From contig NZ_VOXD01000003.1 of NCBI RefSeq assembly GCF_008014675.1, positions 186,001-250,000 on the forward strand: a stretch of DNA of 64,000 bases, in the 5' to 3' direction. Under the pieces are notes generated by a model, which saw only the letters and a program-made list of their open reading frames with translations, did not search any database and was not told the origin of the DNA. Each line of letters opens with the position of its first letter. The stretch's first letter is position 1. The DNA comes from Neolewinella aurantiaca. GTDB lineage: Bacteria; Bacteroidota; Bacteroidia; Chitinophagales; Saprospiraceae. This document shows positions 4,071 to 61,438 of this stretch, in pieces. A program made the translations under genes and the position numbers.

Positions 4071-4088
4071 GCACCTGCGGCCGCGCCC
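4071..4088 (+). repeat. Dispersed 18-bp element, copy a
   Basis: Perfect match (18/18) to GCACCTGCGGCCGCGCCC, forward orientation, in the 57-bp gap between two converging genes. Confidence 0.85.
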
Positions 4089-4094
4089 GAGGAG

Positions 4095-7000
4095 TTATCT
4101 CATCAGAACGAAATCTCCCTTCACAACTTCTTCGTCTCCGTTGATCAGGCGAACCTCCACGTAGAAAACAAACACAGCCGGATTCATCGGTTTCCCGTTC
4201 AGCATTCCGTCCCAGCCGAAGTTGGGATTGTTGCGGGGGATGGAACCGTCGACGGTACTTAAATCAGTCGCTGAGTTGCCGGCGTCGAAAACCATCTCGC
4301 CCCAGCGGTCAAAAATCCTGAAGGCCGTTACGGCCTCTACTTCGTTTCCGACAAACGGGAAAATCAGGTCGTTCACGCCGTCGCCGTTGGGCGAGAAGGC
4401 GGAAGGAACGTAAACATCAGGCGCGGTTCTTACGCCGATGTTTATGCCATCGTCGCCCAGGCAGCCGTTGAGGTCGGTAATGGTTAGCGAAACAGATCTG
4501 TTGTCGAGGGGAAGTAGGTCAACCTCCGGACAATTGATGCAATCTACTCCCAGCCAGATGAAGCTGTCGACCACCACGATGTTGTAAGCCGGGTCGAGTA
4601 CGATGTTTTCTCCCAAATCAATTATGGTGTCACGACCAAAATCCACCGTGATTTCGCCTGGTTCGGCGATGCCCACCTGTTGCATTAGCATGCATCCGTT
4701 TGCATCCTCTACCGCAATGTTATACATGCCCGGCGAGAGGAAATTGAACTGCGGTTCGTCGCTGAACAGAAGGCCGTCGATGCTGTAGGAGTATGGTGGG
4801 GTGCCACCAACTACTGCGTCAAACCGGATGGATCCATTGTCTGCCCCAAAGCACTGGCTGTCGTTGGCCGTCAGGGCAATGGCAATAGGTTCTGGTTCGG
4901 GGACCAACAGACTATCGGTACCGGAGCATCCGTTAGCATCGGTCAGTGTTACGGTATACCATCCGCCGGTTAATTCTGTTTGTACGAGTCCGGTCTGGCC
5001 ATTGCTCCAGCGGATATTCTCAGGCGTTACGCCATCAGGAACGTTACTCACCTGAAGAGCTGCATTTGCTGCGCCAGAACAACTGACACCGCCGCCAGCG
5101 TGACCGGAAATGACGTCGATTTGGAACGTCAGCGTCGGACATGGATCGACAGGTGTACCCTGGCAAGGAATACAGATTGATCCATCGCAGTCGAGGGTCG
5201 TAGCTACATCGTTTTCGGTATTGGGGTTTCCGTCGTCACAAGGGACTATGGAGGCGGGGCCGCTGGTGCAATCCAGGGGCGTTCCGGAGCAGGGTTCGCA
5301 AATAGCTCCGTCGGCGGTGAGCACGGTTTCCGTATCGTTGATGGTGCAATCGTTGCCGTCGTCGCAGGGGAGGACCATCGTGTCATCGTCGTCGCAGTTG
5401 GCGGGTACGCCCGCACAAGGGATGCAAACCGATCCGTCGCAAAGGAGGAAAGTCTCCATATCGTTGATGGTGGATGGGTCGCCGTCGTCGCATGGTCTTA
5501 TGTCGGTGGGGCCGTCGTTGCAGTCGATGGGTGTTCCTGCGCAGGGCACGCAGATGGAGCCGTCGGCAGTGAGTACGGTTTCCATATCGTTGATGGTGCA
5601 ATCGTTGCCGTCGTCGCAGGGGAGGACCATCGTGTCATCGTCGTCGCAGTTGGCGGGTACGCCCGCACAAGGGATGCAAACTGATCCGTCGCAGAGTAGG
5701 ACGGTTTCCATATCGTTGATGGTGGATGGGTTGCCGTCGTCGCAAGGTCTTATGTCGGTGGGGCCGTCGTTGCAGTCGATGGGTGTTCCTGCGCAGGGTA
5801 CGCAGATGGAGCCGTCGGCAGTGAGCACAGTTTCCGTATCGTTGATGGTGCAATCGTTGCCGTCGTTACAGGGGAGAACCATCGTGTCATCGTCGTCGCA
5901 GTTGGCGGGTACGCCCGCACAAGGGATGCAAACCGATCCGTCGCAGAGCAGGAAGGTTTCTACATCGTTGATGGTGGATGGGTTGCCGTCGTCGCAAGGT
6001 CTTACGTCGGTGGGGCCGTCGTTGCAGTCGATGGGTGTTCCTGCGCAGGGTACGCAGATGGAGCCGTCGGCAGTGAGCACGGTTTCCGTATCGTTGATGG
6101 TGCAGTCGTTGCCGTCGTCGCAGGGGAGGACCATCGTGTCATCGTCGTCGCAGTTGGCGGGTACGCCCGCACAAGGGATGCAAACCGATCCGTCGCAAAG
6201 GAGGAAAGTCTCGATATCGTTGATGGTGGATGGGTTGCCGTCGTCGCAAGGTCTTACGTCGGTGGGGCCGTCGTTGCAGTCGATGGGTGTTCCTGCGCAG
6301 GGTACGCAGATGGAGCCGTCGGCAGTGAGTACGGTTTCCATATCATTGATGGTGCAATTGTTGCCGTCGTTACAGGGCTGCATCATTGTTTCGTCGTCGT
6401 CACAGTTTGCCGGTTCTCCTGCACAAGGGATGCAAACCGATCCGTCGCAGAGCAGGAAGGTTTCCATATCGTTGATGGTGGATGGGTTGCCGTCGTCGCA
6501 AGGTCTTACGTCGGTTGGGCCGTCGTTGCAGTCGATGGGTGTTCCTGCACAGGGTACGCAGATGGAGCCGTCGGCTGTGAGTACGGTTTCCATATCATTG
6601 ATGGTGCAATCGTTGCCGTCGTTACAGGGCTGCATCATTGTTTCGTCGTCGTCACAGTTTGCCGGTTCTCCTACACAAGGGATGCAAACCGATCCGTCGC
6701 AGAGCAGGAAGGTTTCCATATCGTTGATGGTGGATGGGTTGCCGTCGTCGCAAGGTCTTACGTCGGTGGGGCCGTCGTTGCAGTCGATGGGTGTTCCTGT
6801 ACAGGGTACGCAGGTGCTTCCGTCACTGTTGAGGACGGTTTCCATATCATTGATGGTACAGTCGTTGCCGTCGTTACAGGGCTGAGTGGTCGTGGTTCCT
6901 GAGCTGCACCCGGAAGCAACTCCCGCACATGGAATGCAGATAGAGCCGTCACAATCGAGTCGGGTTTCAACATCATCGATGGTGTTGGGGTCGCCGTCAT

Positions 7001-9768: not shown

Positions 9769-9786
9769 GCACCTGCGGCCGCGCCT
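9769..9786 (+). repeat. Dispersed 18-bp element, copy b
   Basis: 17 of 18 bases match, forward orientation, intergenic, preceded by CTTT. Confidence 0.85.
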
Positions 9787-12660: not shown

Positions 12661-13836
12661 ATGAAATCAACCGTCCTCCCCGTCATCGTTTTAGCGCAAT
12701 TCTGTTGTACATCCGTATGGTTTGCGGGCAACGCGGTGCTGACTGAACTGATAGAAACCTTCGGCCTGCCAACCTCTGCACTAAGCGGACTCACCTCGGC
12801 GGTTCAGTTCGGTTTTATTTGCGGAACCCTGGTTTTTGCGATGTTGGCCATAGCAGATCGCTTCTCGCCGTCGCGGGTGTTCTGTGTGTCTGCGCTTGCC
12901 GCAGCGCTGTGCAACTTTTGCGCAACGCTGGACGCCAATACCTTTGCGACTTTACTGGGCGGTCGCTTCCTGACCGGTTTTTTTCTGGCGGGCATCTACC
13001 CGGTAGGGATGAAAATTGCAGCAGATTATTTCCAGAAAGGACTGGGGCGCTCTTTGGGCTTTCTTGTGGGAGCACTCGTACTCGGAACGGCCTTTCCTCA
13101 TCTGGTGAAAGCGGTGGGCGGAGCCCTGCCGTGGAAAGCGATACTGTACTGCACTTCTGCGTTTGCAGCCGCGGGCGGACTCATGATTTTGGGGCTTGTG
13201 CCCGATGGCCCGTACCGGGTTTCCGGAAGCAGGCCCAAATTCACAGCCTTTATCCGGGTATTCCGCAACGGCCCCTTCCGGGCTGCTGCGCTGGGTTATT
13301 TCGGGCACATGTGGGAGTTGTACACATTTTGGGCCTTCATCCCAGTGTGGCTGGCGGCGTACTTTTCTGGTCAGATCTTGCCGGTCAACATTTCTTTACT
13401 GACGTTTTTGGTGATTGCTTCCGGGGGACTGGCCTGCGTACTCGCCGGGTATTTATCCGGCGCATTCGGGGTCAAGCGGGTGGCAGCCCTGGCGCTTGCC
13501 GTTTCCGGAGGATGCTGTTTGATCTCTCCTTTGGTGTTCGGTGCTTCCCCTTTCTTGTTTCTTCCTTTCCTCTTCGTTTGGGGAATGACGGTGGTGGCAG
13601 ATTCGCCTTTGTTTTCAACGCTTGTTGCAGAAAGTGCGGAGCAGGAAGTAAAGGGTACAGCACTCACGATCGTCAACTGTCTGGGGTACGCTACAACTAT
13701 TGTGAGCCTGCAACTACTCAGCGGAACGGACGGGTGGCTTGACGCCCGGTGGTTGTTCCTGTTGCTGGCTCCGGGGCCGCTTTTGGGGCTTTTTGGCTTA
13801 TTTTATGGTGGGGCCGCAGGTGCAAAGCGGGTTTGA
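12661..13836 (+). CDS. MFS transporter
   Basis: 391 residues from the ATG at 12661; a 72-residue extension upstream is Arg/Pro-rich, crosses a minisatellite and has no membrane segment, so it is not used. About 12 membrane spans. Between the second and third spans MLAIADRFSPSRVF is the MFS loop 2-3 signature in degenerate form, and GRFLTGFFLAGIYPVGMKIAADYF is typical of spans 4-5. The family moves small solutes by proton symport or antiport across the inner membrane; the substrate is not readable, though the pattern recalls CynX/NimT- and sugar-type members. The last residues GGAAGAKRV are encoded by a degenerate copy of the dispersed 18-bp element, which supplies the C-terminal tail. Confidence 0.82.
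   Translation: MKSTVLPVIVLAQFCCTSVWFAGNAVLTELIETFGLPTSALSGLTSAVQFGFICGTLVFAMLAIADRFSPSRVFCVSALAAALCNFCATLDANTFATLLGGRFLTGFFLAGIYPVGMKIAADYFQKGLGRSLGFLVGALVLGTAFPHLVKAVGGALPWKAILYCTSAFAAAGGLMILGLVPDGPYRVSGSRPKFTAFIRVFRNGPFRAAALGYFGHMWELYTFWAFIPVWLAAYFSGQILPVNISLLTFLVIASGGLACVLAGYLSGAFGVKRVAALALAVSGGCCLISPLVFGASPFLFLPFLFVWGMTVVADSPLFSTLVAESAEQEVKGTALTIVNCLGYATTIVSLQLLSGTDGWLDARWLFLLLAPGPLLGLFGLFYGGAAGAKRV
13806..13823 (-). repeat. Dispersed 18-bp element, copy c (in MFS C-terminus)
   Basis: 15 of 18 bases match in reverse orientation, with the 12-base GGCCGCAGGTGC core exact, inside the last codons of the MFS gene. Forms an inverted pair with copy d, 105 bases apart. Confidence 0.65.
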
Positions 13837-13928: not shown

Positions 13929-13946
13929 GCACCTGCGCCAGCGCCC
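13929..13946 (+). repeat. Dispersed 18-bp element, copy d
   Basis: 16 of 18 bases match, forward, preceded by a T run. Inverted partner of copy c. Confidence 0.75.
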
Positions 13947-18206: not shown

Positions 18207-18659
18207 ACAACGGGCGCATGCAGTCATATTGCTGTCTGCAATGGAAGAGGCCTTGGCTCAAAATGATCGCTTCTGTGTGCTTCCCCGGGCAGGTCCCGGG
18301 CGCGGCCGCAGGTGCAAAGTGAAGCCCCGATGGCTGTACCGTGTTTTCGTCGCCGGAATAGTTGTTTCTGCGCAAGGTTGCGGGACCCACTACCGGGGTT
18401 GACGCAGGAGGACTGAATTAAGAGATACCTTAACATAAAAGTCAGATAAAGTTCCGAAATTTGTCGTCTGCGTACCAAAATTCCCCTTTGCCGCTATAAA
18501 GCCGGATGTGCAAGATATTCAGCGCACACCAGCAGGATGTTTTTCCCTCCTCCGGGCAGGGCTGTTTCGTGTTTGAATTTGGATAGAGTTTGTCGTTTTC
18601 GCTGAAACCTTTTACACCCAATTGAAACCTCTGCGAGGGATCCCCATAAACCTGAAGAA
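18207..18659. other. 453-bp intergenic region
   Basis: Contains repeat copy f at 18298. No small gene or clear terminator seen; the sequence becomes AT-richer near 18420-18480. Confidence 0.45.
18298..18315 (-). repeat. Dispersed 18-bp element, copy f
   Basis: Perfect 18/18 match, reverse orientation, intergenic. Confidence 0.85.
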
Positions 18660-20050: not shown

Positions 20051-23000
20051 ATGTCTTTTACATTCAGGAAATTTACCGGGTTTTGCACGAATACCAGTCT
20101 TCTTACCCTGCTCTTAGTAGCCCTCGCCTGCACCGGCGTTCGCGCCCAGGATGTCTGCCCCGATGACGTTTGTGGAGACATTCCCGCCAGCTTCGCTGCC
20201 GCAAATATGGAGATCGTTTTTTGCGAAGGAGCCACCGTTATCCTGGAGAACACGTCGGCTCCCGGGCTCGATTTCTTCATACTCGATTGGCAGGACGGAG
20301 CGATAGACACGGTTTACGACTACTCCAACATCAGTCACGTTTACACACTGCCCGACGGAGAAGACGGTGAGTGTAAAGAACCCCGCTCTTTTGGTATCGA
20401 ATTTCGTGGAGTCAAGCAGTGTAATGATGGTTTCAGTTGCCAGTCGGGCAGGCTGGATTTTACCATCAGACCGCGGCCTCAGGCAAGGATGATCGTACCA
20501 ACGGAAGTTTGCTCGGGGCGTGAACTTACCTTCATGGACAACAGCTGTAACGCCAATAACTGGCGTTGGGACTTCGGCGATGGCTCCCCCATTTCCACCG
20601 AGGAAAACCCTACCCATACCTACGCCAGCCCGGGAGTCTACGTCGTCACCCTTACGGTAGACGGAATCTCGAGTTGCAGCAGCCTGAATACTTCCACCAG
20701 CCAAACGGTGGAAATTGTTACGCCCCCCAATGCACTTTTCGACCTGGACGATGATGATCTGGTGGCCTGCCGGGGCACCGAAATCACCTTCATCAACCGG
20801 TCCAACGAAGACACCAATATCCAGTGGAACATAAGCCCCGGCTCCGCCGGGGGCAGTAACTGGTCGTTCATCGATACGAGCATGAACGCGTTTTCGGATA
20901 CCATCGTCATCCGCTTCGAAGAGACCCGGACCTTCAACATCGAATTGGTGGGCAGCAACGCCTGTGATACCGAAAGGAGCGAAGTCGATATTGTTATCGA
21001 AGACGCACCAACGGTCAATTTGTTGCCAATGATCGGTGCCTGTGACCAGGTGAGCCTGACGCCTGCGGACCTTGATTACGAGGTAACCGGTAGTACTACC
21101 GACATCTGCTGGCGCTTCACGAACGGAAGCCTGGCTGATGTGTGTACCGAAGACTTCGGCAGCATTGACTTCACCGAATCGGGCACCGTCGAACTTGTCG
21201 TCACCAGCCTTTGTGGTGAAACGGTGCGCAGGACCGATGTAATCATCCAGTCAAGTGAAATACCGATGCTGACCGGCCTTTCACAATACTGTAGCGGCAA
21301 CGATCCTGATACCCTGCGCGCTAACATCCCCGGCGGAGTATGGATCGGAGACGGAATTATTGATGATGTCCTTGGTCTGTTTGATCCGGGTGATGCGGAA
21401 ATAGGGGACAACGTAATCACTTACCGGATCGACAACGGACTGTGTGTGAACGAAAATACCATCACGCTGAACGTGGTGGAAAGCGAAACCGTAACGGCTA
21501 CCGACGCATCTTTTTGTATTGACGGCGATCCTGCTGACCTCTCCGCGATCCCCGGCGGGGGAACATGGTCGGGAACGGGAATCACCGACGCAAACACCGG
21601 TACTTTCGATCCCGATTCCAGCGACGTCGGGATGTTCTTCCCCGATTATACCTATGTGGACGGCAACGGTTGTGTCGTCACCGTCAGCCCGGAAGTGAAC
21701 GTAATTCCCCTGCCTACGGCGACAACGACGGACACCGCCATTGCCTGTTTCGTGAACGAAGATGTCGAACTGATCGGGATTACGGAGGCAAACCCGGTGC
21801 CGGATGATGGCAACTTTGTATGGACACTCAACGGTACCGAATTGCCGGGAGGAACCTTCAATCCGGAAAGCGATTTGCCGGGCCCGGGCGTGTATGATCT
21901 CACCTTCACTTACGAAAGCGGCCCGTGTATGATTGCCGGAGCTACCAAACTTAACGTGATCGAAAACCCGGTGCTGATGCTCGACCCACAGGACAACGTC
22001 TGCATCAGTGAAGGAACGCTTCAGCTAAGTGCAAACCTCAGCGGCGGAATGTGGTCGGGGCCGGGCGTTGACCCTGCTACCGGCGAAGTTGACCTGATGG
22101 TGGCCGGTGGCGGAGACCATACGTACAACTATACCTTCCAACCGGGAGGAAGCTGCGAACAGACGACCAGCCAAAACGTAACCGTAGAAGACCCCGGCAG
22201 TTCCATCGAAGCCGGCGGCGACCAGGAGGCTTGCGAAGGCAACGATCTGATGCTGACGCTTACCGGAAGTTCGCCCGCTGGCGGAATGTGGTCCGGGCCC
22301 GGCGTTACCGATCCCGTAGCGGGAACGGTTGATCTGGACAGCCTCGTGCCGGGCGCCGATTATGAATTTATTTATTCCGTTTCGAGCGCGACAACGCCCG
22401 GCTGTGACGCTGCGGCAATGAAAACGGTGAGCTACTACCCACGGCCGGTGATCGATTTTGCGATGGCCGGAGCACCGTGTATCAACGAGGAGTTTTGCCT
22501 CTCCGTTCCTGCTGTTGCGGGGAACTCCGTCAGTTGGGGTTTTGGCGACGGAACGATGGGAACCGGGGCCGATATTTGCCATACCTACACGGCGGGCGGA
22601 AATTACGACCTCACTTTGCGCGTCACTTCTGCCCGGGGGTGTTTTGCCGATACCACCGTTTCCATTTACGTAACCACGCCGCCCGTTCCGTCATTTGCGC
22701 TGGACAGCAGCATGGGCTGTGCGCCCTTCGTTCTTGACCTGGAGGACGAAAGCACGGGCGATCAGTTGACGTCTGTCTGGATCGTCAATAACGACACCTT
22801 TCCCGGCGGCCAAAACCTGAACTATACCATCGATGGATTCTTTGCGGACACCACGATCGACATTGCGCTGATTGCAGAGAATTTTTGCGGGGCGCGGCCG
22901 CAGGTGCAAAGTGTGTTGGTGAGACCGTACCCAACGGTGAACTTCGGTCTGGACCTCGACGAAGACTGTTCCCCCTTCACGCCCCGGATCAGTAACGTAA

Positions 23001-25462
23001 CGCGGGGTAACCCCGTGAGCTGGCGCTGGGATATGGGGAACGGTACAACGGGGACCGACAGCATCCCTCCGCCCGCTACCTACACAACGCCGGATGATTC
23101 GGTGAGTACCTACGAGATTATGCTCATTGCCACCAATGATTGTGGCCGGGACACGATGACGCGTACCGTAACCGTTTACCCGCCGGACGTAGAGGCCTTC
23201 ATCGGCCTCGATACCATTGCGGGCTGCCAGCCGTGGACCTTCCAGCCTGAGAGTTTTTCGACGCCAGGCTCCGCCCTGGCCTGGGAAGTAACCAACTCGG
23301 CCGGGGCGGTGGTAGCAACCGGCAACAATGCTACCCCAAACTTCCAGCTCGATGAATCGGGAACCTACCGGGTTGTCCTGCAGGCCGCCCGCTGCGGCGA
23401 AGACGCTGATACCGTCTTCGTGGAAGTCCTGCCAGCGCCTGAGGTGAGCTTCGTCGCGGATATGCCGAGGATCTGTGAAGGAGAACTATTACAACTCACC
23501 AACACCTCCGTTGGTATTTCCGGAGGAGCGTGGAACTTCGGCGACGGGCGGACGAGCGAAGAGCTAAGCCCGCTGGTCGGGTACGATTCGGTCGGAACGT
23601 ATACTCTTTCCTTCACCGGTTTCTCGACGATCAACCAGTGCCCGGCCAGCGCATCGACAACCGTGGAGGTGGGAGGACTGCCAGAGTTGGCACTCATGGC
23701 AACGGATTCGTCCGGTTGCTCTCCCTTTACCACCAGCTTCAGTAATACGGCAGCGAACCCCGGTTCGCTAACCTACTCCTGGACCTTTGACGACGGTGCC
23801 AACGCCAGCAACGAAGCTACCCCAAACCACACATTTGAAGAGCCGGGAACTTACGTTCCACGCCTGCAGGTGACCGATGCAGCGGGTTGCCAAAGCGATA
23901 CTTTCCTGAGCAGAATCATTGTTCATCCTGACCCTGTACCTGCGTTTGCGCCCCTTAATGATCGCTTCTGTACCGGATACGACAGCCTCGTTCTTGCCGA
24001 TTCCTCCACCGGGGCAACGATGCTGGACTGGACCATCGGTGGCCAAAGCTACGGAGGAACCCCGCCCGTGGTTCCGTTCACTACCCCCGGCGACATCACC
24101 GTAAATCTCATAGCTACCAACGATTTTGGCTGCCAGGCTGATACGAGCGAAGTGTTCTCTGTTTTGCCCAGCCCGGAAGCAATGTTAGCGGCGACGCCGG
24201 ATTCTGTTTGTCTCGACGAACTGTCGGTTCTGGACGCCAGCGGGTCGAGCCCCCTGACTGACCTGCTGTGGGACCTGGGCGACGGCACCGGGCGAACCTC
24301 CATCAATTTCGGGCACCGATACGAATCCGCCGGAGCATACGACGTAAGCGTAATTGTGAGCGACGTTAACGGTTGCCCCGCAGATACGGCCTACGCCACG
24401 GTGGTTGTACACCCTCTTCCCGAAGCAGCCTTCTCCCTGGAAGAAAGCTTGCGCTGCGGTACACCCGCTCCGGTTCAGTTTACCAACGCAAGTACCGGTG
24501 CATTGTCTTACGACTGGATTTTTGGTGACGGGCAGTCGGCCACTACGCTTAACCCCGAGCACGTTTACACAACGGAAGGTCTTTACCAGCCGCGCCTCAT
24601 CGCTACGACAGCCTTCGGCTGTCGGGATACTGCAGAGGCCGAACTCGTTATTTCCGGCGATCCCGTGGCCAATTTTGCGCTGCCAGAACCAATCTCCTGC
24701 TCGCCCTATGCACTCAGTATCGAGGCAGACCCAACGGCGGCCATTCGTTATGAATGGTACATCAACGATGCCTTCAGCCCCAGCGTCGGGCAGCGTTTCG
24801 ATACCGTTCTGGCGGAGCCGGGCAGCTACGATCTCACGCTGATTGCGATCTACGACGAAGTATGCCGGGATACGCTGCGGGCCAGTAATTTCCTGCAGTT
24901 GCAACCTTCACCGGTCGCCGAATTCCGTTTTCAGGAAGACGAACTTCCGAACCGCCTGGGCGACGTTCACTTTACTTCCGAGAGTACCGGCGGCACGCAG
25001 TTGTTCTGGGACCTTGGGGACGGGACGACGAATACCGCCGCCAACTTTATCCACGAATACCGGATCAACCGGGATATTACCGTTACCCACGCCGTTACCG
25101 AAACCTACGGGCAGGGGCTTGTTTGCTCCGATACCATCCGGAAAGAGATAGAACCCGAGTGGATTACGACCTTTTTCGTGCCCACGGCCATTTCTCCGGA
25201 ATCCGGACCCGACGAGGTCCGCTCCTGGGGCGCAAAAGGCTTCGGCGTCGCTGAATACACGCTTGAGGTCTTCAGTAAATGGGGACAAATTGTTTACTCC
25301 ACCAGCGAACTGGAAGACTCTTCGCCGACCGGCCGCTGGGACGGGCGGAAGCCGGACAGTGATGAATTTATCCTGCAAGGAGCCTATACCTGGCGGGCGT
25401 CGGTACTGTACGTCAACGGAGTTCGGGACAGTTTCGTGGGGACGGTTACCGTAGTGCGGTAA
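20051..25462 (+). CDS. PKD-repeat surface adhesin with T9SS gliding-type C-terminal domain
   Basis: 1,803 residues. Signal peptide LLTLLLVALACTGVRAQ. Many PKD domains follow, with the WDFGDG...PTHTYASPGVYVVTLTV pattern at about 175-215 and similar WxFGDG / YxxxGxYxxxL units through to about 1,680; a run of Cys-flanked modules (GGxWSGxGxxDxxxGxFDP) lies at about 420-770. The C-terminus TTFFVPTAISPESGPDEVRSWG...FSKWGQIVYST...GRWDG is a CHU_C-like type B sorting domain, though it lacks the usual SPNGDGxND core. It would be exported by T9SS and held on the cell surface, probably for adhesion or gliding, with the upstream PorP/SprF protein as partner. A perfect copy of the dispersed element lies inside a domain linker. 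Confidence 0.87.
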   Translation: MSFTFRKFTGFCTNTSLLTLLLVALACTGVRAQDVCPDDVCGDIPASFAAANMEIVFCEGATVILENTSAPGLDFFILDWQDGAIDTVYDYSNISHVYTLPDGEDGECKEPRSFGIEFRGVKQCNDGFSCQSGRLDFTIRPRPQARMIVPTEVCSGRELTFMDNSCNANNWRWDFGDGSPISTEENPTHTYASPGVYVVTLTVDGISSCSSLNTSTSQTVEIVTPPNALFDLDDDDLVACRGTEITFINRSNEDTNIQWNISPGSAGGSNWSFIDTSMNAFSDTIVIRFEETRTFNIELVGSNACDTERSEVDIVIEDAPTVNLLPMIGACDQVSLTPADLDYEVTGSTTDICWRFTNGSLADVCTEDFGSIDFTESGTVELVVTSLCGETVRRTDVIIQSSEIPMLTGLSQYCSGNDPDTLRANIPGGVWIGDGIIDDVLGLFDPGDAEIGDNVITYRIDNGLCVNENTITLNVVESETVTATDASFCIDGDPADLSAIPGGGTWSGTGITDANTGTFDPDSSDVGMFFPDYTYVDGNGCVVTVSPEVNVIPLPTATTTDTAIACFVNEDVELIGITEANPVPDDGNFVWTLNGTELPGGTFNPESDLPGPGVYDLTFTYESGPCMIAGATKLNVIENPVLMLDPQDNVCISEGTLQLSANLSGGMWSGPGVDPATGEVDLMVAGGGDHTYNYTFQPGGSCEQTTSQNVTVEDPGSSIEAGGDQEACEGNDLMLTLTGSSPAGGMWSGPGVTDPVAGTVDLDSLVPGADYEFIYSVSSATTPGCDAAAMKTVSYYPRPVIDFAMAGAPCINEEFCLSVPAVAGNSVSWGFGDGTMGTGADICHTYTAGGNYDLTLRVTSARGCFADTTVSIYVTTPPVPSFALDSSMGCAPFVLDLEDESTGDQLTSVWIVNNDTFPGGQNLNYTIDGFFADTTIDIALIAENFCGARPQVQSVLVRPYPTVNFGLDLDEDCSPFTPRISNVTRGNPVSWRWDMGNGTTGTDSIPPPATYTTPDDSVSTYEIMLIATNDCGRDTMTRTVTVYPPDVEAFIGLDTIAGCQPWTFQPESFSTPGSALAWEVTNSAGAVVATGNNATPNFQLDESGTYRVVLQAARCGEDADTVFVEVLPAPEVSFVADMPRICEGELLQLTNTSVGISGGAWNFGDGRTSEELSPLVGYDSVGTYTLSFTGFSTINQCPASASTTVEVGGLPELALMATDSSGCSPFTTSFSNTAANPGSLTYSWTFDDGANASNEATPNHTFEEPGTYVPRLQVTDAAGCQSDTFLSRIIVHPDPVPAFAPLNDRFCTGYDSLVLADSSTGATMLDWTIGGQSYGGTPPVVPFTTPGDITVNLIATNDFGCQADTSEVFSVLPSPEAMLAATPDSVCLDELSVLDASGSSPLTDLLWDLGDGTGRTSINFGHRYESAGAYDVSVIVSDVNGCPADTAYATVVVHPLPEAAFSLEESLRCGTPAPVQFTNASTGALSYDWIFGDGQSATTLNPEHVYTTEGLYQPRLIATTAFGCRDTAEAELVISGDPVANFALPEPISCSPYALSIEADPTAAIRYEWYINDAFSPSVGQRFDTVLAEPGSYDLTLIAIYDEVCRDTLRASNFLQLQPSPVAEFRFQEDELPNRLGDVHFTSESTGGTQLFWDLGDGTTNTAANFIHEYRINRDITVTHAVTETYGQGLVCSDTIRKEIEPEWITTFFVPTAISPESGPDEVRSWGAKGFGVAEYTLEVFSKWGQIVYSTSELEDSSPTGRWDGRKPDSDEFILQGAYTWRASVLYVNGVRDSFVGTVTVVR
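22890..22907 (-). repeat. Dispersed 18-bp element, copy g (inside the PKD adhesin gene)
   Basis: Perfect 18/18 match, reverse, in frame within the adhesin, encoding GARPQV between PKD modules. Confidence 0.85.
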
Positions 25463-29763: not shown

Positions 29764-29781
29764 AGGCGCGGGCGCAGGTGC
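29764..29781 (-). repeat. Dispersed 18-bp element, copy h
   Basis: 16 of 18 bases match, reverse. Inverted pair with copy i, 171 bases apart. Confidence 0.75.
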
Positions 29782-29952: not shown

Positions 29953-29970
29953 GCACCTGCGGCCCCGCCC
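29953..29970 (+). repeat. Dispersed 18-bp element, copy i
   Basis: 17 of 18 bases match, forward. Partner of copy h. Confidence 0.8.
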
Positions 29971-35872: not shown

Positions 35873-35890
35873 CGGCGCGAACGCGGGTGC
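35873..35890 (-). repeat. Dispersed 18-bp element, degenerate copy j
   Basis: 14 of 18 bases match, reverse. Faces copy k, 69 bases away. Confidence 0.5.
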
Positions 35891-35959: not shown

Positions 35960-35979
35960 GCACCTGCGCTCCGGCGCCC
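35960..35979 (+). repeat. Dispersed element, copy k (20 bp, with insertion)
   Basis: GCACCTGCGCTCCGGCGCCC keeps both ends of the element but is two bases longer. Forward, preceded by CTTT. Confidence 0.6.
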
Positions 35980-44550: not shown

Positions 44551-44728
44551 GGCTCAAGTTTTTTATTAAGGGAGCGCAAAGGTACAGTAATACACCTTGT
44601 TTACCAAACTTTAATCCGACTTAGATTTTGATATTTAATCATCGGGGCAGAGCACCGGAGCTTCCACCTTACACCGGCGAATCGGACGGGTATTCATAAA
44701 GGTATAAAATTATGGCACCCAGCTTTCC

Positions 44729-44746
44729 GGGCGCGGCCGCAGGTGC
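44729..44746 (-). repeat. Dispersed 18-bp element, copy l
   Basis: Perfect 18/18 match, reverse. With copy m it forms a 17-of-18 inverted repeat around 81 bases; the loop itself holds a GGAGGG/CCCTCC pairing. Confidence 0.85.
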
Positions 44747-44827: not shown

Positions 44828-44845
44828 GCACCTGCGGCAGCGCCC
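44828..44845 (+). repeat. Dispersed 18-bp element, copy m
   Basis: 17 of 18 bases match, forward. Partner of copy l. Confidence 0.85.
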
Positions 44846-50689: not shown

Positions 50690-51388
50690 CTACTTGCGCT
50701 TAACGGCAGTGCTATCGAGTTGGATCTCGTTCACCTGATAGCTGACGTTGAAATCATCCAGAACTGCGTCCAGAATACGGTCGTCTCCAATAGTATATTT
50801 TTGCTTAAGACGGTGGCCGTAAAGCCCCGCCAGAGTAGCCCAGTAACGGGCCGTAAGGCCTCCCCGGAGGTCTTTGATGAGATCGTAGGTTGGGATGTCG
50901 AGCTCGCGCTCAATCATTGCCATCAAGACTTTCCCCTGGGTCTTCGACATCTTTTTCAGAGGGGCTTCGAACTTTTCTTCCAGCTCTTTTTGCAGTTTCT
51001 TATTGTAGCGTTTACGCTCGCTCTTTTTCATGTTCTGCGTCATGTACTCGGTCTCCCGGTAAATGCGGATGGCATCCACTGCGTACGGGTAGGCACGCTG
51101 TGCGTAAATCCGGTACCGACGGTACTGCTTGTATTCATCTTCGGTCTCGAATACCTCGGGGCTGCTTACTGAAACATCGCCAAGTTGGGCCACAATGAGG
51201 GTGTCCCCACAGTCGTCAACCATGTATGGGTAGTACTTTCCGTCCACTTTAGTGTAGCCGGTCTGTGCGGTGAGCACAGGTGCAAAGGCCACCAACAAAA
51301 GAGGCAGCAGCGACAGAAGCGGGAGTATACGGGCGCGGCCGCAGGTACCGGGAAAGGTTTTGAAAAGCAAAGTGGAAGGAATATGCAT
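50690..51388 (-). CDS. DUF4294 family exported protein
   Basis: 232 residues. Signal sequence ILPLLSLLPLLLVAFAPVLTAQ preceded by an unusual 20-residue N-terminus that includes GTCGRAR, encoded by a copy of the dispersed 18-bp element. The mature part has DDCGDTLIVAQLGDVSVSSPEVFETEDEYKQYRRYRIYAQRAYPYAVDAIRIYRETE and a charged helical C-terminus (ERKRYNKKLQKELEEKFEAPLKKMSKTQGKVLMAMIERE), matching DUF4294 of Bacteroidota; function unknown. There is no in-frame Met between 51388 and the hydrophobic core, so if the N-terminus is an insertion the gene has kept its original start codon upstream of it. Confidence 0.82.
   Translation of the reverse strand: MHIPSTLLFKTFPGTCGRARILPLLSLLPLLLVAFAPVLTAQTGYTKVDGKYYPYMVDDCGDTLIVAQLGDVSVSSPEVFETEDEYKQYRRYRIYAQRAYPYAVDAIRIYRETEYMTQNMKKSERKRYNKKLQKELEEKFEAPLKKMSKTQGKVLMAMIERELDIPTYDLIKDLRGGLTARYWATLAGLYGHRLKQKYTIGDDRILDAVLDDFNVSYQVNEIQLDSTAVKRK
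51331..51348 (-). repeat. Dispersed 18-bp element, copy n (in DUF4294 signal region)
   Basis: 17 of 18 bases match, reverse, within the n-region of the signal peptide. Confidence 0.8.
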
Positions 51389-53510: not shown

Positions 53511-55574
53511 ATGAGAAATTTCTTCACCCTGATCGTGGCCATGTTGCTCACGGCAGGCTCGTTGCAAGCCGAGCAAATCTTTGTCCTCTTCGACGGTACC
53601 TGTGGGGACCGCGTGAAGTACGAACAGTCGGTTGCGCAGCAGCCACGGCTCGATTATTATGCATATCACTTCTCCTTTCAGGGTGGAGACCGGCTCTTGT
53701 TAGAAACTGGTGCAGAGGGAACTACGGTTCAGAACTTCCTGCCCCAGGGCTACATTTACTGTGGCGACCCGCGCCTCAGCCTCGAACTTGCTAACCGCGT
53801 GAACGGCGGCGTTGACCGGGTATTCATTTTGCTGCCAACGGCTAATAATCAGTACATCATTCAACCGGTAATCATGGCGTCGGTGTTGCAGCGTAACGGA
53901 GCATCTTTTTCCTACTTCAGCCCACTTACCGGCTTTCAGTTCGATACCGAAAACGGTATTATCGGTGAAAACCTCGCGGTAGACAACGAAGGGGCAAAGG
54001 TCTACTTCGAAGGCCGGGAAACAAGCCCCTGCGCTGGCTACTTTTTGTTCCGCCAGTTGAAGGTAGGAGCCTCTTACCCGGTTATCGATTATAAGATTTC
54101 TCCGGAAATCGGAGTTTTCGAACGTAGCCTCGGCAGCGACGGGATCAGTACTACTGGTGGAACGATCGTTGCCCGCGAGGTAAACGGCATGCCCGTTGCC
54201 AACTACCTGAGTTCGGTTTGTGCTTCTGCAACCACCATAGCCCAGAACACCGCAAACACCCCGGCCATAACACCCCCGGCTTACGGTGGCACCCCGCAAC
54301 CACAGGCTTATGGTACCCAACAGCCCGCTCCGCCCCAGCCGTACTACACTCAGCCTCAGGAGCAGCAAGTACAACCCGAGTCGGTTGCTTACGGCACAGC
54401 TTCCCAACAACCCTCCACGACCGTCACAACTGTAAACCACACCGTGGCAAAAGGCGAAACCCTTTACGCTGTATCCCGTAAGTACAACACAACGGTAGAT
54501 GCGGTGAAAACTGCCAACGGGCTAACCAGCAATACTTTGTTTCCCGGCCAGCAACTGGCAATCACTACTACAATGTCGGTCCCGGCCAATGAAGTAGCTA
54601 TGGCTCCTGCCCCTACCGTTCCTACCACTCCTTATAATGCCGGTAATGTTGCTTATTCAAATCCGGGAGCGGCCCAGCCAACTCCTTACAGTACAACCCC
54701 GGCAACCCCTCAGGCTTACGGCGCTCAGCAGACGGCACGTAGTGGTCAGGCAGCAGTCTACGGAGAGAACCTCCACATAGTACAACCCGGAGAGACGGTG
54801 GCGAGCATTGCACTGCGTTACGGATATACTTCGGCCAAATTCCGCGAGATGAACGACATCGGCGCCAATGAGGTCGTACGGATTGGTCAGCAACTGAAAA
54901 CAACAGACTGTAATTGTCCGGTGCAGGAGGCTGCGCCCGCCGAAGCAGCACCGGCAGCGTACGGCCAGCCCGCCGCAACGCCCCAGTCGTACAGCCAACC
55001 CGCCGCTACACCTCAGGCTTACGGTCAGCCCGCTACGGCCAGCCCGCAGGCTTACGGTAACGAGAGCGGAACTGCGCAGCCAGCAACACCGGCTTACCGT
55101 ACACCGCAGGGCTACCAGGCACCTCAGTCGGCTCCGGTTCCGGCAACGACCACTCCAAAGGTCGCCGCCCCGACTACAATCACGAACAATCCTAATTTTG
55201 GCCAGGTAGTACCCAATGCGTCTGCACCTCCGAGCTCAACTATGGGCCAACTGGAGGCGCGTGGCAGTACTGCGCCTGCGGCGCAGCCAACCAACGCCAA
55301 CCCTGCTACTTACAATGCGTACCCTGCACCTGCGCCCGCGCCCACGCAGTACCAGTCGCCCAACCCTGTTCCCAATGCATACGGAACTCCGGTAGGGGTA
55401 AATACCCAGCCGGCGGCGCAACCGACCAACCGCGCGTTTCACCTCGTACAGGAGGGCGAAAGCCTGTACTCGATTGCGCGCCGTTACGGGATTACTACCA
55501 ATCAGTTGCGGGCACTCAATAACCTGGACAACGGCAGCGTGATCGTTCCTTTCCAGAAATTGTACGTGAACTAA
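53511..55574 (+). CDS. Exported protein with three LysM domains
   Basis: 687 residues. Signal peptide FFTLIVAMLLTAGSLQA. A domain of about 200 residues (IFVLFDGTCGDRVKYEQ...) is followed by three LysM modules at about 310-352, 420-464 and 642-687, each with H-x-V-x-x-G-E-(T/S)-L/V and a closing GQQL/FQKL. Between them lie long Pro/Ala/Gln/Tyr-rich linkers with repeated QAYGQP-type words, which look disordered. LysM binds GlcNAc-containing peptidoglycan; the N-terminal domain is one I do not recognise, so this is probably a cell-wall-bound periplasmic protein. One linker is written by a copy of the dispersed element (PAPAPAP). Confidence 0.85.
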   Translation: MRNFFTLIVAMLLTAGSLQAEQIFVLFDGTCGDRVKYEQSVAQQPRLDYYAYHFSFQGGDRLLLETGAEGTTVQNFLPQGYIYCGDPRLSLELANRVNGGVDRVFILLPTANNQYIIQPVIMASVLQRNGASFSYFSPLTGFQFDTENGIIGENLAVDNEGAKVYFEGRETSPCAGYFLFRQLKVGASYPVIDYKISPEIGVFERSLGSDGISTTGGTIVAREVNGMPVANYLSSVCASATTIAQNTANTPAITPPAYGGTPQPQAYGTQQPAPPQPYYTQPQEQQVQPESVAYGTASQQPSTTVTTVNHTVAKGETLYAVSRKYNTTVDAVKTANGLTSNTLFPGQQLAITTTMSVPANEVAMAPAPTVPTTPYNAGNVAYSNPGAAQPTPYSTTPATPQAYGAQQTARSGQAAVYGENLHIVQPGETVASIALRYGYTSAKFREMNDIGANEVVRIGQQLKTTDCNCPVQEAAPAEAAPAAYGQPAATPQSYSQPAATPQAYGQPATASPQAYGNESGTAQPATPAYRTPQGYQAPQSAPVPATTTPKVAAPTTITNNPNFGQVVPNASAPPSSTMGQLEARGSTAPAAQPTNANPATYNAYPAPAPAPTQYQSPNPVPNAYGTPVGVNTQPAAQPTNRAFHLVQEGESLYSIARRYGITTNQLRALNNLDNGSVIVPFQKLYVN
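55326..55343 (+). repeat. Dispersed 18-bp element, copy o (in LysM protein linker)
   Basis: 17 of 18 bases match, forward, within a Pro/Ala linker before the third LysM module. Because Pro/Ala codons are GC-rich, chance contributes more here than elsewhere. Confidence 0.65.
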
Positions 55575-55780: not shown

Positions 55781-56989
55781 ATGACCACCCTCCTCTTATT
55801 TGCGTTTTTCTCCATTGCCTTCTCCTTCATGTGTTCCATCTGGGAGGCGGTATTGCTGTCCATTTCACCCTCTTACGTACAAATCAAAGTCGCGGAAGGT
55901 GGCAGGACCGGCGAGCTGCTGCAGAAGTTCAAAAAGGACGTGAATGCACCCCTGACGGCTATTCTTTCTCTCAACACGGTTGCCCATACCGTAGGGGCAA
56001 TTCTGGTAGGAGCCAGCACCGGCGCCGCCTTCGGTGAGGGTGGTTTTACCATCCCCGGAATCGAGTATGTCGTAAGCTACGAGGTGCTTGTGAGTGTTGT
56101 AATGACGCTTGCAATCCTGATCCTTTCGGAAATTATACCCAAAAACCTTGGCGCAACTTACTGGAAACAGTTGGCCCCGTTTACGGTGAAGGCACTCAAC
56201 GTTCTGGTTACGATTTTTACCTGGACGGGCTTTATCTGGGTATCCGATAAAATCAAAAAGCTGTTGCTGCGCGGTGATGACCCCCACGGAACTGCACTGA
56301 GCCGGACCGAGTTCATTGCGATGGCCGAAGCCGGTACCGAATCCGGTGAACTCAAAATCGAAGAAGGGCGGATTCTGAAAAACCTGCTCGCTTTCGAATC
56401 GCTCACCGTTCACGACGTAATGACACCCCGAACCGTAGTGGTTGGTGCGCGTACCACGATGACGATTAACGAGTTCTACGAGAAATTTGATGGCAGCCCG
56501 TTCAGCCGCTACCCGGTTTTTGGGGAAACCCGCGATCAGGTAGAAGGTTACGTCCTCAAGGATATGGTCTATAAGGCTATCATCGAAGAAGCCGGGAGCG
56601 AGCCGCTCACTACACTGATGCGCGACCTTGTACCGGTACCACAAACCACGACGCTGCACAAACTCATCGACCTGATGCTGGAGCGCCGCGAGCCGATCGC
56701 AATGGTCGTCGACGAGTTTGGCGGTCTGGAAGGTTTGGTAACTATGGAAGATGCCATGGAGACTCTGTTGGGCCTCGAGATCATGGATGAAATGGATACC
56801 AGCAAAGATATGCAGGACCTGGCCCGCAACCGCTGGCGGAAACGTGCAGAAAGCATGGGGCTTGACCTTTCGGAAATGGAAGGAAATGCCATCGATGCCG
56901 TTGTAGACGGAAAGGTGAGCAAAGCCGTAAACGAAGCGGTGAACGATGCCGTAGACGCTGCGGTGAAAAAGGATGCTTCCGGATCGTAA
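55781..56989 (+). CDS. CNNM/DUF21 membrane protein with two CBS domains
   Basis: 402 residues. The CNNM (DUF21) domain fills about 1-175 with four membrane spans and LILSEIIPKNLGATYW in the last of them. Two CBS domains follow (about 205-330), with HDVMTPRTVVVGA, SRYPVFGETRDQVEGYVLKD and PIAMVVDEFGGLEGLVTMEDAMETLLG, typical of CorC/HlyC-like ion-handling proteins of the magnesium-efflux type. The usual C-terminal CorC_HlyC transporter-associated domain is missing: after residue 340 only a charged tail (VSKAVNEAVNDAVDAAVKKD) remains. Inner membrane protein; Mg or Na/Mg exchange is likely from family data. Confidence 0.85.
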   Translation: MTTLLLFAFFSIAFSFMCSIWEAVLLSISPSYVQIKVAEGGRTGELLQKFKKDVNAPLTAILSLNTVAHTVGAILVGASTGAAFGEGGFTIPGIEYVVSYEVLVSVVMTLAILILSEIIPKNLGATYWKQLAPFTVKALNVLVTIFTWTGFIWVSDKIKKLLLRGDDPHGTALSRTEFIAMAEAGTESGELKIEEGRILKNLLAFESLTVHDVMTPRTVVVGARTTMTINEFYEKFDGSPFSRYPVFGETRDQVEGYVLKDMVYKAIIEEAGSEPLTTLMRDLVPVPQTTTLHKLIDLMLERREPIAMVVDEFGGLEGLVTMEDAMETLLGLEIMDEMDTSKDMQDLARNRWRKRAESMGLDLSEMEGNAIDAVVDGKVSKAVNEAVNDAVDAAVKKDASGS

Positions 56990-57010: not shown

Positions 57011-57028
57011 CGGCGCGGCCGCAGGTGC
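57011..57028 (-). repeat. Dispersed 18-bp element, copy p
   Basis: 17 of 18 bases match, reverse, between the CNNM gene and the aminotransferase promoter. Confidence 0.85.
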
Positions 57029-58513: not shown

Positions 58514-58531
58514 GCACCTGCGACCGCGCCC
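58514..58531 (+). repeat. Dispersed 18-bp element, copy q
   Basis: 17 of 18 bases match, forward, in the gap between convergent genes. Confidence 0.85.
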
Positions 58532-59637: not shown

Positions 59638-60675
59638 ATGTATCATTTCTGGGAAATAATCGTGAACGCTTACCGGGATTACGCGAACTACCTGTGGCAT
59701 GACATCACCCAGCCGCAGTGGTCATCGTATTTCTACGCGCTGATTCTGGTGTCGTTGGTGTTCTTCGTTCTTGAAGTTGTAGTTCCCTGGAGAAGAAATC
59801 AGGCCGTTTTGCGGAAGGACTTTTTTCTTGACCTGTTCTACATGTTTTTCAACTTCTTTCTCTTTTCACTGGTGGTTTACAATGCGGCTTCGAGTGTCGT
59901 GGTGGACATAATCAACAACGGAATCAGCTGGCTCACGGGAGGTTTTGATTTGCAGGCCAGCAACCCGATGCGGTTCTGGCCGCTGTGGGCAGTGCTGCTG
60001 CTAGGCTTCTTTGTCAGGGATTTTATTCAGTGGTGGGTACATCGGTTGCTGCACCGTTCCGATTTTTTATGGCGCTTTCACCAGGTGCATCACTCGGTGC
60101 AGGAAATGGGGTTTGCCGCTCACTTGCGCTACCACTGGATGGAGACAGTCGTTTACCGGACCATTGAATACCTGCCGTTGGCCCTTTTGGGGATCGGGCT
60201 CTACGATTTCTTCATCATTCATCTGTTCAGTTTAGCGTGGGGGCACTACAACCATGCTAACATCCGGCCGCCCTCGTGGATTACGGGCGGTATTGTGGCC
60301 GGACTAGTGGGCCTGGCGATGGGGAGTGGAAGCTTTGATTTTGCCGTCGTTGCTGACCCTAACTGGTTGACTACCCTTGCCGGAGGCCTGATCGGTTTCG
60401 GAGCGGGAGCAGTCCTGCTGGGGCCGGTTATGAGAATTATCTTCAATAGCCCGGAAATGCACCTTTGGCACCACGCAAAGTCACTCCCTGAAGAGCGGCG
60501 GTATGGTGTTAATTTTGGCCTTACCCTCGCGATCTGGGACTACATCTTCGGCACAAATTACCAACCCTACGATGATGCCGAGCTCGAGCTCGGGTTTGAG
60601 GGGGTAGAGAAATTCCCGGCAGGCTTTGTCGGGCAGTCGGTTGGGGTTCCTCCGTTGATGGGGGATGATGATTAA
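59638..60675 (+). CDS. Sterol desaturase / fatty acid hydroxylase family protein
   Basis: 345 residues with about four to five membrane spans. The di-iron histidine clusters are all visible: HRLLH (about 138-142), HQVHHS (about 151-156), HYNHAN (about 202-207) and HLWHH (about 277-281). This membrane di-iron family hydroxylates or desaturates lipids using O2. In bacteria, targets include fatty acids, carotenoids or hopanoids; the sequence alone does not choose. The gene is alone, convergent with a DUF5683 gene 49 bp away. Confidence 0.88.
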   Translation: MYHFWEIIVNAYRDYANYLWHDITQPQWSSYFYALILVSLVFFVLEVVVPWRRNQAVLRKDFFLDLFYMFFNFFLFSLVVYNAASSVVVDIINNGISWLTGGFDLQASNPMRFWPLWAVLLLGFFVRDFIQWWVHRLLHRSDFLWRFHQVHHSVQEMGFAAHLRYHWMETVVYRTIEYLPLALLGIGLYDFFIIHLFSLAWGHYNHANIRPPSWITGGIVAGLVGLAMGSGSFDFAVVADPNWLTTLAGGLIGFGAGAVLLGPVMRIIFNSPEMHLWHHAKSLPEERRYGVNFGLTLAIWDYIFGTNYQPYDDAELELGFEGVEKFPAGFVGQSVGVPPLMGDDD

Positions 60676-60724
60676 ACGGCAGAGATTTTTATTCGTTGGT
60701 TAAGTCGGGCGTATTAAGGGGGAA

Positions 60725-61438
60725 TTAACGTGCCATACTTTTCAGGCGCTCTACTTCACCGACTTCTCTGTTTAGTTTTCGCCCGCTTCCGAGTGGAATG
60801 GTAAGCCCGGCGGCCATCATTCCGTCGGGTTGTACGACCGGGCCGAGGCGTACACTCAGGTCATCCGATATATCGAATTCCTGGAGGTGTGCATCGGTAT
60901 AAGCTTCTACGGCCTGAAGCAAATAGCCCACAAAAATACCGATATAGGCGGTTTGGCGGGCTCTGTCGGCCGTTGCGCGCGCCTGGAGCAGTGCACTGTC
61001 AGAGACCAGGTCGGCGGGGAACTCGTCTTCGGTAACCACACAATCATCGGCCTGTCCGAGGCAACGGTTTTCGAGGGCAGTGGTGTACCTGCGGTAACTC
61101 GTTTGGTTGAAATCGGCGTATGCCACCAGGCCGAGCAGGCCACTATAAACCAACGGGACCTTCCACCAGCGCTTGTTGTAGACCTGGCCTCCGCCGGGGA
61201 TGGCCGCCCAGAGTAAAGCATTGCGTGGGTTCCTTTTCAGCTCTTTCAGGGTTGGCAGCGTATCAATGGCCACGACCGCCGCGGTATCGATTTCTACGGG
61301 GCCAGTGGTCTGTGCCGGCGCGGCCGCAGGTGCAAAAATAAGGACGAAGAGCAATGAGGGTAATATCGCTATCCTCAGGATAGCAGAAAATGTGCAAGTA
61401 CCGTAGCGGTTGAGATTAGTCATGTAAGGGAAAGACAC
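60725..61438 (-). CDS. DUF5683 family exported protein
   Basis: 237 residues. Signal region LRIAILPSLLFVLIFAPAAAPAQ; the APAAAPA stretch at its end is written by a copy of the dispersed 18-bp element. NPRNALLWAAIPGGGQVYNKRWWKVPLVYSGLLGLVAYADFNQTSYRRY is the DUF5683 core (two membrane helices), and a further hydrophobic segment (AYIGIFVGYLLQAVEAYTDAHLQEFDISDDL) follows. Family function is unknown, but it is regularly found right after parB in Bacteroidota, as here (55-bp gap). An ATG at 61423 (five codons on) is an alternative start. Confidence 0.85.
   Translation of the reverse strand: MSFPYMTNLNRYGTCTFSAILRIAILPSLLFVLIFAPAAAPAQTTGPVEIDTAAVVAIDTLPTLKELKRNPRNALLWAAIPGGGQVYNKRWWKVPLVYSGLLGLVAYADFNQTSYRRYTTALENRCLGQADDCVVTEDEFPADLVSDSALLQARATADRARQTAYIGIFVGYLLQAVEAYTDAHLQEFDISDDLSVRLGPVVQPDGMMAAGLTIPLGSGRKLNREVGEVERLKSMAR
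61316..61333 (-). repeat. Dispersed 18-bp element, copy r (in DUF5683 signal peptide)
   Basis: 17 of 18 bases match, reverse, coding APAAAPA at the cleavage end of the signal peptide. Confidence 0.8.

Follow-up and report, generated by a model that had tools for sequence, protein, structure and literature searches.

A dispersed sequence tag with lineage-specific spellings and same-strand spacing in Neolewinella, a candidate signal for DNA uptake

Copies of the tag in the window

The window, that is, the whole stretch of 64,000 nucleotides of Neolewinella aurantiaca DNA analysed here, contains a short GC-rich tag that occurs both between and within genes. With up to 3 mismatches allowed, 17 matches are present compared to 0.11 expected. 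At a cut-off of 16 bits, a profile of the tag detects 20 copies, 10 per strand, and these alternate perfectly in orientation; a 21st profile hit at 14327 (+), of 12.2 bits, falls under this cut-off and would break the alternating series.

The intergenic copies, given here as core coordinates with strand and score, include 4071..4087 (+, 38.0 bits) between convergent genes, 9769..9785 (+, 34.9 bits) between divergent genes, 18299..18315 (-, 29.9 bits), 57012..57028 (-, 39.3 bits), located 22 bp past gene 55781-56989, and 58514..58530 (+, 36.2 bits). Other intergenic copies form inverted pairs, namely, 29765..29781 (-, 34.4 bits) with 29953..29969 (+, 43.4 bits), 35874..35890 (-, 32.1 bits) with the weak copy 35960..35976 (+, 19.7 bits), and 44730..44746 (-, 40.6 bits) with 44828..44844 (+, 34.3 bits), the last of which has one counterpart in the same intergenic slot of a related genome, G008. 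In another inverted pair, the left half, 13807..13823 (-, 35.0 bits), lies at the 3' end of the MFS gene 12661-13836 (Pfam), and the right half, 13929..13945 (+, 38.1 bits), is intergenic. The PKD gene 20051-25462 (Pfam) carries 20130..20146 (+, 23.6 bits) close to its start as well as 22891..22907 (-, 41.2 bits) and 23936..23952 (+, 23.1 bits) further inside. The remaining intragenic copies are 5253..5269 (-, 24.7 bits) within the 1835-aa gene 4095-9602 (SprB/CHU_C, Pfam), 51332..51348 (-, 38.5 bits) close to the start of the DUF4294 gene 50690-51388, 55326..55342 (+, 34.3 bits) in the LysM gene 53511-55574, and 61317..61333 (-, 36.2 bits) in the N-terminal, signal-peptide-like part of the DUF5683 gene 60725-61423.

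The four perfect copies, eight copies with one change and two copies with two changes that had been described previously are all located as claimed. Among the four copies described as weaker or partial, 13806 (3 changes), 35873 (32.1 bits) and 35960 (19.7 bits) hold up, and 16643 is a partial match of 13 bases that is absent among the profile hits of at least 12 bits; the copies at 5252, 20130 and 23936 (24.7, 23.6 and 23.1 bits) had been overlooked. The 18-mer itself is the core within a profile of ~40 bp that consists of a strong core and weaker flanks, and this core is bipartite, with a nearly free middle base. The palindromic centre GCGGCCGC, initially taken as a feature of the element, is incidental: no position of the core is less conserved than its middle base, and the palindrome is missing from the other dialects. 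The CTTT upstream of the copies belongs to a weaker arm of ~20 bp. An Rfam search of the window yields no family that reaches the threshold. A single conserved protein motif as the source of the repeats can be ruled out because the host genes are unrelated and the copies occur on both strands and in several frames.

Abundance, genomic context and spellings

Across the genome (6 Mb), there are 1,042 copies of the 18-mer with up to 2 mismatches, 499 and 543 on the two strands, compared to a single match (0 and 1) for the reversed control; the background density of the 17-mer is 143 copies in 464 kb. Such abundance on both strands, from hundreds to thousands of copies, is a trait of uptake sequences of the DUS and USS type, and so is the genomic context. 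Among 151 copies assigned with our own simple gene finder, 88 are intergenic, in DNA that makes up 17% of the total, so that intergenic DNA is enriched, and 63 reside in genes. The intragenic copies are divided into 34 sense and 29 antisense, and the copies between tandem genes into 26 co-oriented and 25 anti-oriented with transcription. This lack of bias in the direction of transcription rules out a general role as an RNA signal, promoter or terminator. The ten longest motif-free gaps were examined, by gene layout, as possible mobile islands; the longest one (11.5 kb, C28) looks like a ribosomal-protein operon judging by gene sizes.

All 21 genomes of the genus carry some spelling, or dialect, of the tag, which is missing from 39 genomes outside the genus, where there are at most 14 matches (9 in the control). 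Four spellings are represented among the 21 genomes, three of which partly overlap, whereas the fourth is exclusive to G011, a genome with 929 copies of this unrelated spelling in which the common one is hardly present. G008 holds about 805 copies, and the spelling of G007, missed by exact words, was detected with spaced words and then counted. Lineage dialects of this kind are another trait of the DUS/USS type. In other genera, 80 kb of G021 and a pool of G033 and G034 DNA (60 and 20 kb) revealed no comparable signal. G021 contains an apparently tandem word.

At several of seven window slots aligned to orthologous sequences, relatives retain a copy at the same place, with substitutions; the motif aligns without gaps, and some flanks contain gaps. 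The 51332 copy is retained in all four relatives aligned there (G003, G008, G005 and G002), and the 61317 copy in G003, G008 and G005, with G002 having one in the same slot and G004 also having one at this place in the gene. The 57012 copy is retained with two changes in G008, the sole relative whose alignment spans the site. In a repetitive stretch where the alignments are of low identity, the counterparts of the 55326 copy differ from the core by 0-1 change in G006 and G008 and by three in G003 and G002. No counterpart of the 58514 copy was seen at its slot in the relatives compared. Across dialects, G011, G001 and G007 are mostly devoid of sites at the window's slots, with one site of G011 near the 57011 slot.

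Exclusion of same-strand neighbours

Copies of the tag avoid each other on the same strand over about 3 kb, far more than they do on opposite strands. Pooled across four genomes and three spellings, there are 39 same-strand pairs at 0.3-3 kb compared to 167 expected, and 129 opposite-strand pairs, also with 167 expected, which amounts to mild depletion. G001 was left out of the pool due to its small numbers (3 same-strand and 5 opposite-strand pairs, 5.3 expected for each). The profile hits include some chance ones, as reversed-sequence controls indicate (3 vs 83 in G011 and 7 vs 125 in G019). The exclusion is equally strong for the shorter motif of G011, and the exceptions are one same-strand pair 27 bp apart in G019 and one at 189 bp in G001. 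Close inverted pairs, often with the copies 75-250 bp apart, are enriched.

Because avoidance is so much stronger on the same strand, neighbouring copies tend to alternate in orientation. In G019, 81 of 122 neighbours alternate, compared to a mean of 61 and a maximum of 84 in 10,000 permutations; alternation is weak in G001 (14/24). Two independent same-strand processes predict a frequency of alternation of 0.72, against 0.79 observed, and thus largely account for it, so that alternation is not a separate rule.

The DUS of Neisseria bergeri, compared in one genome and from 100 bp up only, behave differently: at 0.1-1 kb, repulsion is about equal on the same strand (48/80) and on the opposite strand (54/80). 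Neighbours are opposite in 129/197 cases there, probably mostly via close inverted pairs. Such spacing, independent of orientation, is not what is found for the tag.

Candidate explanations for the tag

The original prediction left the choice between REP-type elements and DNA-uptake or recognition sequences; the former are poorly supported by the sequence comparisons, and the latter appear to be the best fit. Dispersal of REP/REPIN elements by a RAYT-type Y1 transposase would explain a short, abundant repeat with frequent inverted pairs 75-250 bp apart, one of which folds strongly (z -5), in a genome with four Y1_Tnp matches. These matches sit on contigs other than that of the window, consistent with the earlier statement that the window encodes no REP transposase; none of the four loci has close copies on both flanks. 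Among the 41 Y1_Tnp loci found in the 13 genus genomes searched, the surroundings of 25, 77.5 kb in all, contain the 17-mer 20 times, which is about background, and G008 combines its large complement of copies with one weak Y1 match. The exception is the only Y1_Tnp locus of G011 (L236), with two inverted copies of that genome's own spelling 0.15-0.45 kb upstream. Moreover, the three single copies that were folded (z 0.12, 0.61 and 1.15) do no better than shuffles, that is, lack the palindromic stem of a REP unit; many copies are intragenic where REPs are extragenic; and the aligned orthologous sites, common to relatives, differ by substitutions. Taken with these observations, the REP explanation appears quite improbable.

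The tag could also be bound by a protein that organises the chromosome into nucleoid loops, or by a repair protein for which it would be a long Chi-like site, the protein working unidirectionally along one strand over a few kb. Same-strand exclusion and near independence of the strands suit such a directional reader, as does the presence of the tag in every member of the genus, but the more than 900 sites of unrelated spelling in G011, with few common ones, are hard to account for without a drive, and the tendency of orientations to alternate along contigs suggests that there is no strong leading-strand bias. We know of no Chi as long as a site of 30+ bits, which also counts against a Chi-like role. 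According to a passage in PMC1939737, Karlin et al. took the even spacing of USS to indicate that these sites take part in replication, repair or compaction; on the whole, we consider a site of this kind unlikely, albeit the strongest of the competing explanations. Directional use and kb-range redundancy would fit also packaging or transfer-initiation sites, each of which would direct about 3 kb of DNA into GTA-like headful packaging or nick-initiated transfer, but no GTA is known to be sequence-specific in such a manner, and this possibility seems very remote. An otherwise ordinary uptake sequence could, finally, owe its spacing rule to nothing but deletion between close direct repeats, which predicts, as observed, an effect on same-strand copies only that fades with distance. 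Against this, the same DNA abounds in other direct repeats of 12-16 bp that lie no more than 3 kb apart, a weak argument given that they probably come from a few repetitive genes; the rule is no weaker for the shorter motif of G011, and the two strands do not clearly differ for the Neisseria DUS once close pairs are set aside. We regard the deletion scenario as somewhat less likely than the chromosomal binding site.

The reading that we favor, at somewhat better than even confidence, is that the tag is a genome-wide self-recognition signal of the DNA-uptake-sequence kind, a role that fits its distribution, dialects and site conservation as far as sequence comparison goes. A receptor would prefer DNA bearing the tag, so that uptake and recombination would repeatedly plant it via point mutation and gene conversion, and the spelling would track the receptor of each species. 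The same-strand spacing rule suggests that each site is read on one strand or in one direction: the reach of a site would be about 3 kb and limited to the strand that carries it, or to one direction, which would make a nearby second copy redundant in the same orientation but not in the opposite one.

The USS of Pasteurellaceae consist of a strong core and weaker flanking tracts and are more narrowly spaced than the tag. The tag shares with them this architecture, the combination of intergenic and intragenic copies and, judging by the passage on USS mentioned above, the even spacing, but differs in sequence and belongs to another phylum. The DUS of Neisseriaceae, described in PMC3630211 as thousands of short copies with species dialects, likewise resemble the tag in copy number, dialects, presence on both strands and close inverted pairs; unlike these, the tag has a core that is longer and bipartite and tolerates almost any base in the middle, its exclusion is almost confined to the same strand, and one congener uses an unrelated spelling. 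According to a passage of PMC1939737, uptake by Haemophilus influenzae was unaffected by how the strongest site was oriented, which counts against directional reading. In our literature search, uptake sequences were described for Neisseriaceae and Pasteurellaceae, and no such label was found for this bacterial group.

ComEC is present in all 21 genomes of the genus, which is weak evidence because 10 of the 14 control genomes encode it as well. The T2SSE profile, a search for the ATPases of the type IV pilus that, with a pilin receptor, mediates uptake of DUS and USS, produces no convincing match: 20 of the 21 genomes have some match and one has none, the best reaches 25.5 bits, and the cut-off of 24.9 is passed in 11. 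These matches, most of them in proteins of ~950 or ~650 aa, extend over less than 25% of the profile and, being weak and partial, suggest that the known uptake-sequence machine is missing from the genus. A search for the receptor did not find it. G011, the genome with the unrelated spelling, alone has a barrel and DUF5689 gene pair, in which a CarboxypepD_reg/Plug protein adjoins a DUF5689 protein; full-length homologs of the two were not found in the DNA searched, which covers the other genomes only to a small extent, and DUF5689 has no match in the other 20, the window's genome included. In another member of Bacteroidota, Riemerella anatipestifer, which shares ComEC, two genes resembling this pair encode proteins with barrel and DUF5689 domains reported to be essential for transformation (PMC8459023), a paper the main text of which does not use the term 'uptake sequence'.

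A bolder version of the uptake scenario, which we put forward tentatively and at less than even confidence, is that the tag is a Bacteroidota self-recognition signal read strand-wise or direction-wise by a pilus-free uptake machine, with strand-resolved exclusion as its fingerprint, and that a swap of the surface receptor, perhaps the barrel and DUF5689 pair as in G011, respells about a thousand sites. If an uptake role is correct, DNA self-recognition would have evolved independently in a third lineage, one that has dialects and apparently no pilus; receptor-motif switches could be followed as a natural series within a single genus, and the tag could help to identify the outer-membrane receptor for DNA in Bacteroidota. 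What is new here is that copies shun same-strand neighbours far more than opposite-strand ones, and this exclusion provides a quantitative test of whether tags are read single-stranded or one-directionally.

Abundance and anatomy of the motif

The 18-mer of the original prediction is indeed repeated across the window (17 matches with at most three mismatches versus 0.11 expected) and throughout the genome of Neolewinella aurantiaca (5,995,659 bp in 104 contigs), where copies with at most two mismatches number 499 in forward and 543 in reverse orientation, compared with 0 and 1, respectively, for the pattern read backwards. The motif statistics are based on 464 kb of this genome, made up of the window, contig C1 (1-300000) and contig C28 (1-100000). 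In a base profile built from 109 copies, the core spans 17 bp, GCACCTGCG-N-CCGCGCC, and its tenth base is almost free. A weaker arm lies upstream, rich in pyrimidines at about -21 to -14 and carrying AACC at -11 to -8, followed by C at -4 and T at -1, and some A is present at +20 to +22; the flanks more than about 25 bp out have no common sequence. Scanning the 464 kb at 12 bits with a profile derived from the very DNA scanned yields 151 matches, versus 1 in the reversed sequence and 0 with three shuffled profiles. Spacing variants within the core also exist: among the 20 candidates, 9 have opposite-orientation neighbours on both sides, 9 on one side and 2 on neither. The three single copies examined do not fold better than shuffles, and a close inverted pair does; no Rfam family reaches the threshold anywhere in the window.

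Although genes cover 83% of the DNA (by a simple purpose-made gene finder), 88 of the 151 matches lie between genes and 63 in genes. The motif is independent of transcription direction because copies in genes include 34 sense and 29 antisense, and those between tandem genes run with the genes in 26 cases and against them in 25. The longest motif-free gap of the sample, 11.5 kb (G000:C28:39622-51099), contains many short co-directional genes and, by gene sizes, resembles a ribosomal-protein operon.

Avoidance between copies on the same strand

Spacing was analyzed for 145 matches of at least 16 bits in the 464 kb. Successive copies are opposite in 112 of 142 cases, versus a mean of 72 (sd 5.9, maximum 97) over 10,000 label permutations, and the 20 copies in the window alternate without exception, with a chance of 2/C(20,10), about 1 in 90,000; a weaker match at 14327 (12.2 bits) would interrupt this series. 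Same-strand pairs are absent below 1,000 bp (uniform density predicts 22.7), depleted at 300-3,000 bp (17 versus 61 expected) and number 20 versus 22.7 expected at 3-4 kb. Opposite-strand pairs at 300-3,000 bp number 51 versus 61 expected, and close -/+ pairs, less than 300 bp apart, are in excess (16 versus 3.4). Treating each strand as a renewal process of its own, with same-strand distances as observed, produces 72% alternation compared with the 79% seen; therefore, alternation is mostly a consequence of same-strand exclusion, that is, of mutual avoidance of copies on the same strand.

In the congeners G005, G011 and G019, same-strand pairs at 300-3,000 bp number 6, 9 and 7 against 30.4, 30.2 and 45.3 expected, opposite-strand pairs number 20, 23 and 35 against the same expectations, and neighbours are opposite in 53 of 74, 55 of 78 and 81 of 122 cases, respectively. 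Pooled with the N. aurantiaca genome, these give 39 same-strand and 129 opposite-strand pairs, with 167 expected of each; G001, left out of the pool because of too few copies, has 3 and 5, with 5.3 expected of each.

As a control, we used 220 kb of Neisseria bergeri and its DUS12 (DUS, the DNA uptake sequence of Neisseriaceae). At 100-1,000 bp, there are 48 same-strand and 54 opposite-strand pairs (80 expected of each) and, below 100 bp, 57 opposite-strand versus 9 expected and 2 same-strand versus 8.9 expected, a mild repulsion that depends little on strand, plus a surplus of close inverted pairs. Thus, repulsion is approximately strand-blind in this one Neisseria genome but mainly same-strand for the motif described here, so strand-resolved exclusion is not common to every uptake sequence. 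An inverted pair of the Neisseria DUS was also seen in two Pasteurellaceae records, Spirabiliibacterium falconis (L148) and Pasteurella testudinis (L156).

Dialects and site history in the genus

The 17-mer was sought with at most two mismatches in 60 genomes (N. aurantiaca, 20 congeners and 39 of other genera). It is abundant within the genus only, with 1,329 copies in N. aurantiaca and 148 to 1,611 in 17 of the 20 congeners (reversed controls 3 to 38); counts are low in G001 (7), G007 (43) and G011 (10), and each of the 39 genomes of other genera has at most 14 (control 9 in the 14-copy genome). The spelling of G011 is agCatTGCTACTTTG-N-tAgccaaaa, with 929 copies; none of the other 20 genus genomes has more than 8. 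G001 and G007 spell the motif approximately as ttACCTGCGCtCCGcCGCcaaaa, with 745 and 489 copies, respectively, not exclusively (7 to 280 in the other genus genomes), and G019 favours GCACCCGCG-N-CCGCGCC, with C at that position in 67%. Some spelling is present in all 21 genus genomes; no comparable motif was found in samples of three other genera, G021 (80 kb) and the pooled G033 (60 kb) and G034 (20 kb). Stretches L092-L096 of G019 contain a second over-represented word, GCCTACCGCCTAC, perhaps in tandem, and in G005 a unit resembling GCAACCCCTGCAACAGGAGCGAAGCGACCCT, unrelated to the motif, is arrayed in tandem at L085:15589-15900 and near L090:17729.

Seven window sites, named by start position, were compared with stretches of five congeners. 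All four relatives that align at 51331 keep the motif; at 61316, three keep it by alignment, G002 has it in the same slot and G004 has it as well. At 55326, where the DNA is repetitive and alignment identity is low, G006 and G008 differ from the core by 0-1 change, and G003 and G002 by three. Only the G008 alignment spans 57011, and it retains the motif there with two changes; the slot 44729/44828 holds one copy in G008, and 58514 has no counterpart among the stretches compared. Where these sites align, the motif differs by substitutions and by no unit-sized gap, with gaps in some flanks. Slots are mostly not common to different dialects. Window positions 44001-44600, mostly without a confident gene, are 75-88% identical across the genus.

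Possible roles in uptake or transposition

The motif fits a driven signal for self-recognition, akin to uptake sequences: it is genome-wide, information-rich and respelled between congeners, shows no general transposase link, does not follow transcription and recurs, through point changes, at several places shared with relatives. The original prediction also entertained REP-type elements, and genes with the Y1 transposase domain (Y1_Tnp), sought as REP-type (RAYT) transposases, do exist in the genus, with 41 matches in N. aurantiaca and the 12 congeners G001-G012, which the search covered. However, the 25 loci examined carry the common 17-mer approximately at background (20 times in 77.5 kb at up to three mismatches, versus 143 in 464 kb). 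The single Y1_Tnp locus of G011 (L236:1071-1746, G011:C59) is the exception, as a REP reading would predict, with two copies of the G011 spelling in inverted orientation 0.15-0.45 kb upstream.

For an uptake-type signal, the spacing implies that redundancy concerns mainly a same-strand copy within about 3 kb. Such redundancy would be expected if, under drive, each site promoted the transfer either of the strand on which it lies or of the DNA on one side only; we infer the receptor and the direction of reading, as we do uptake. In Haemophilus influenzae, by contrast, turning the strongest site either way made no difference to uptake (PMC1939737). Among the literature matches listed, from a collection lacking most subscription papers, for uptake sequences in Bacteroidetes, Bacteroidota transformation, Lewinella, strand and spacing (matches off-topic) and REPIN/RAYT in Bacteroidetes, titles and abstract openings give no uptake sequence for the phylum.

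ComEC is encoded once in each of the 21 genus genomes. The search for the T2SSE ATPase in these genomes gave partial matches only, of at most 25.5 bits, which reach the cut-off of 24.9 in 11 of the 21; the best are in proteins of about 950 aa, presumably UvrA given their size. In Riemerella, transformation requires ComEC, DprA, a putative ComF, RecA and new proteins, among them a DUF5689 protein and a CarboxypepD_reg protein predicted in the outer membrane (PMC8459023). Within the genus, DUF5689 occurs in 1 of the 21 genomes, that of G011, the species with the unrelated spelling, a single case noticed after the fact and a lead rather than evidence. There (L300:5673-10601, G011:C115), a gene with three DUF5689 domains lies 99 bp behind a CarboxypepD_reg/Plug protein gene (Pfam scores below cut-off), a pair that resembles two Riemerella transformation genes.
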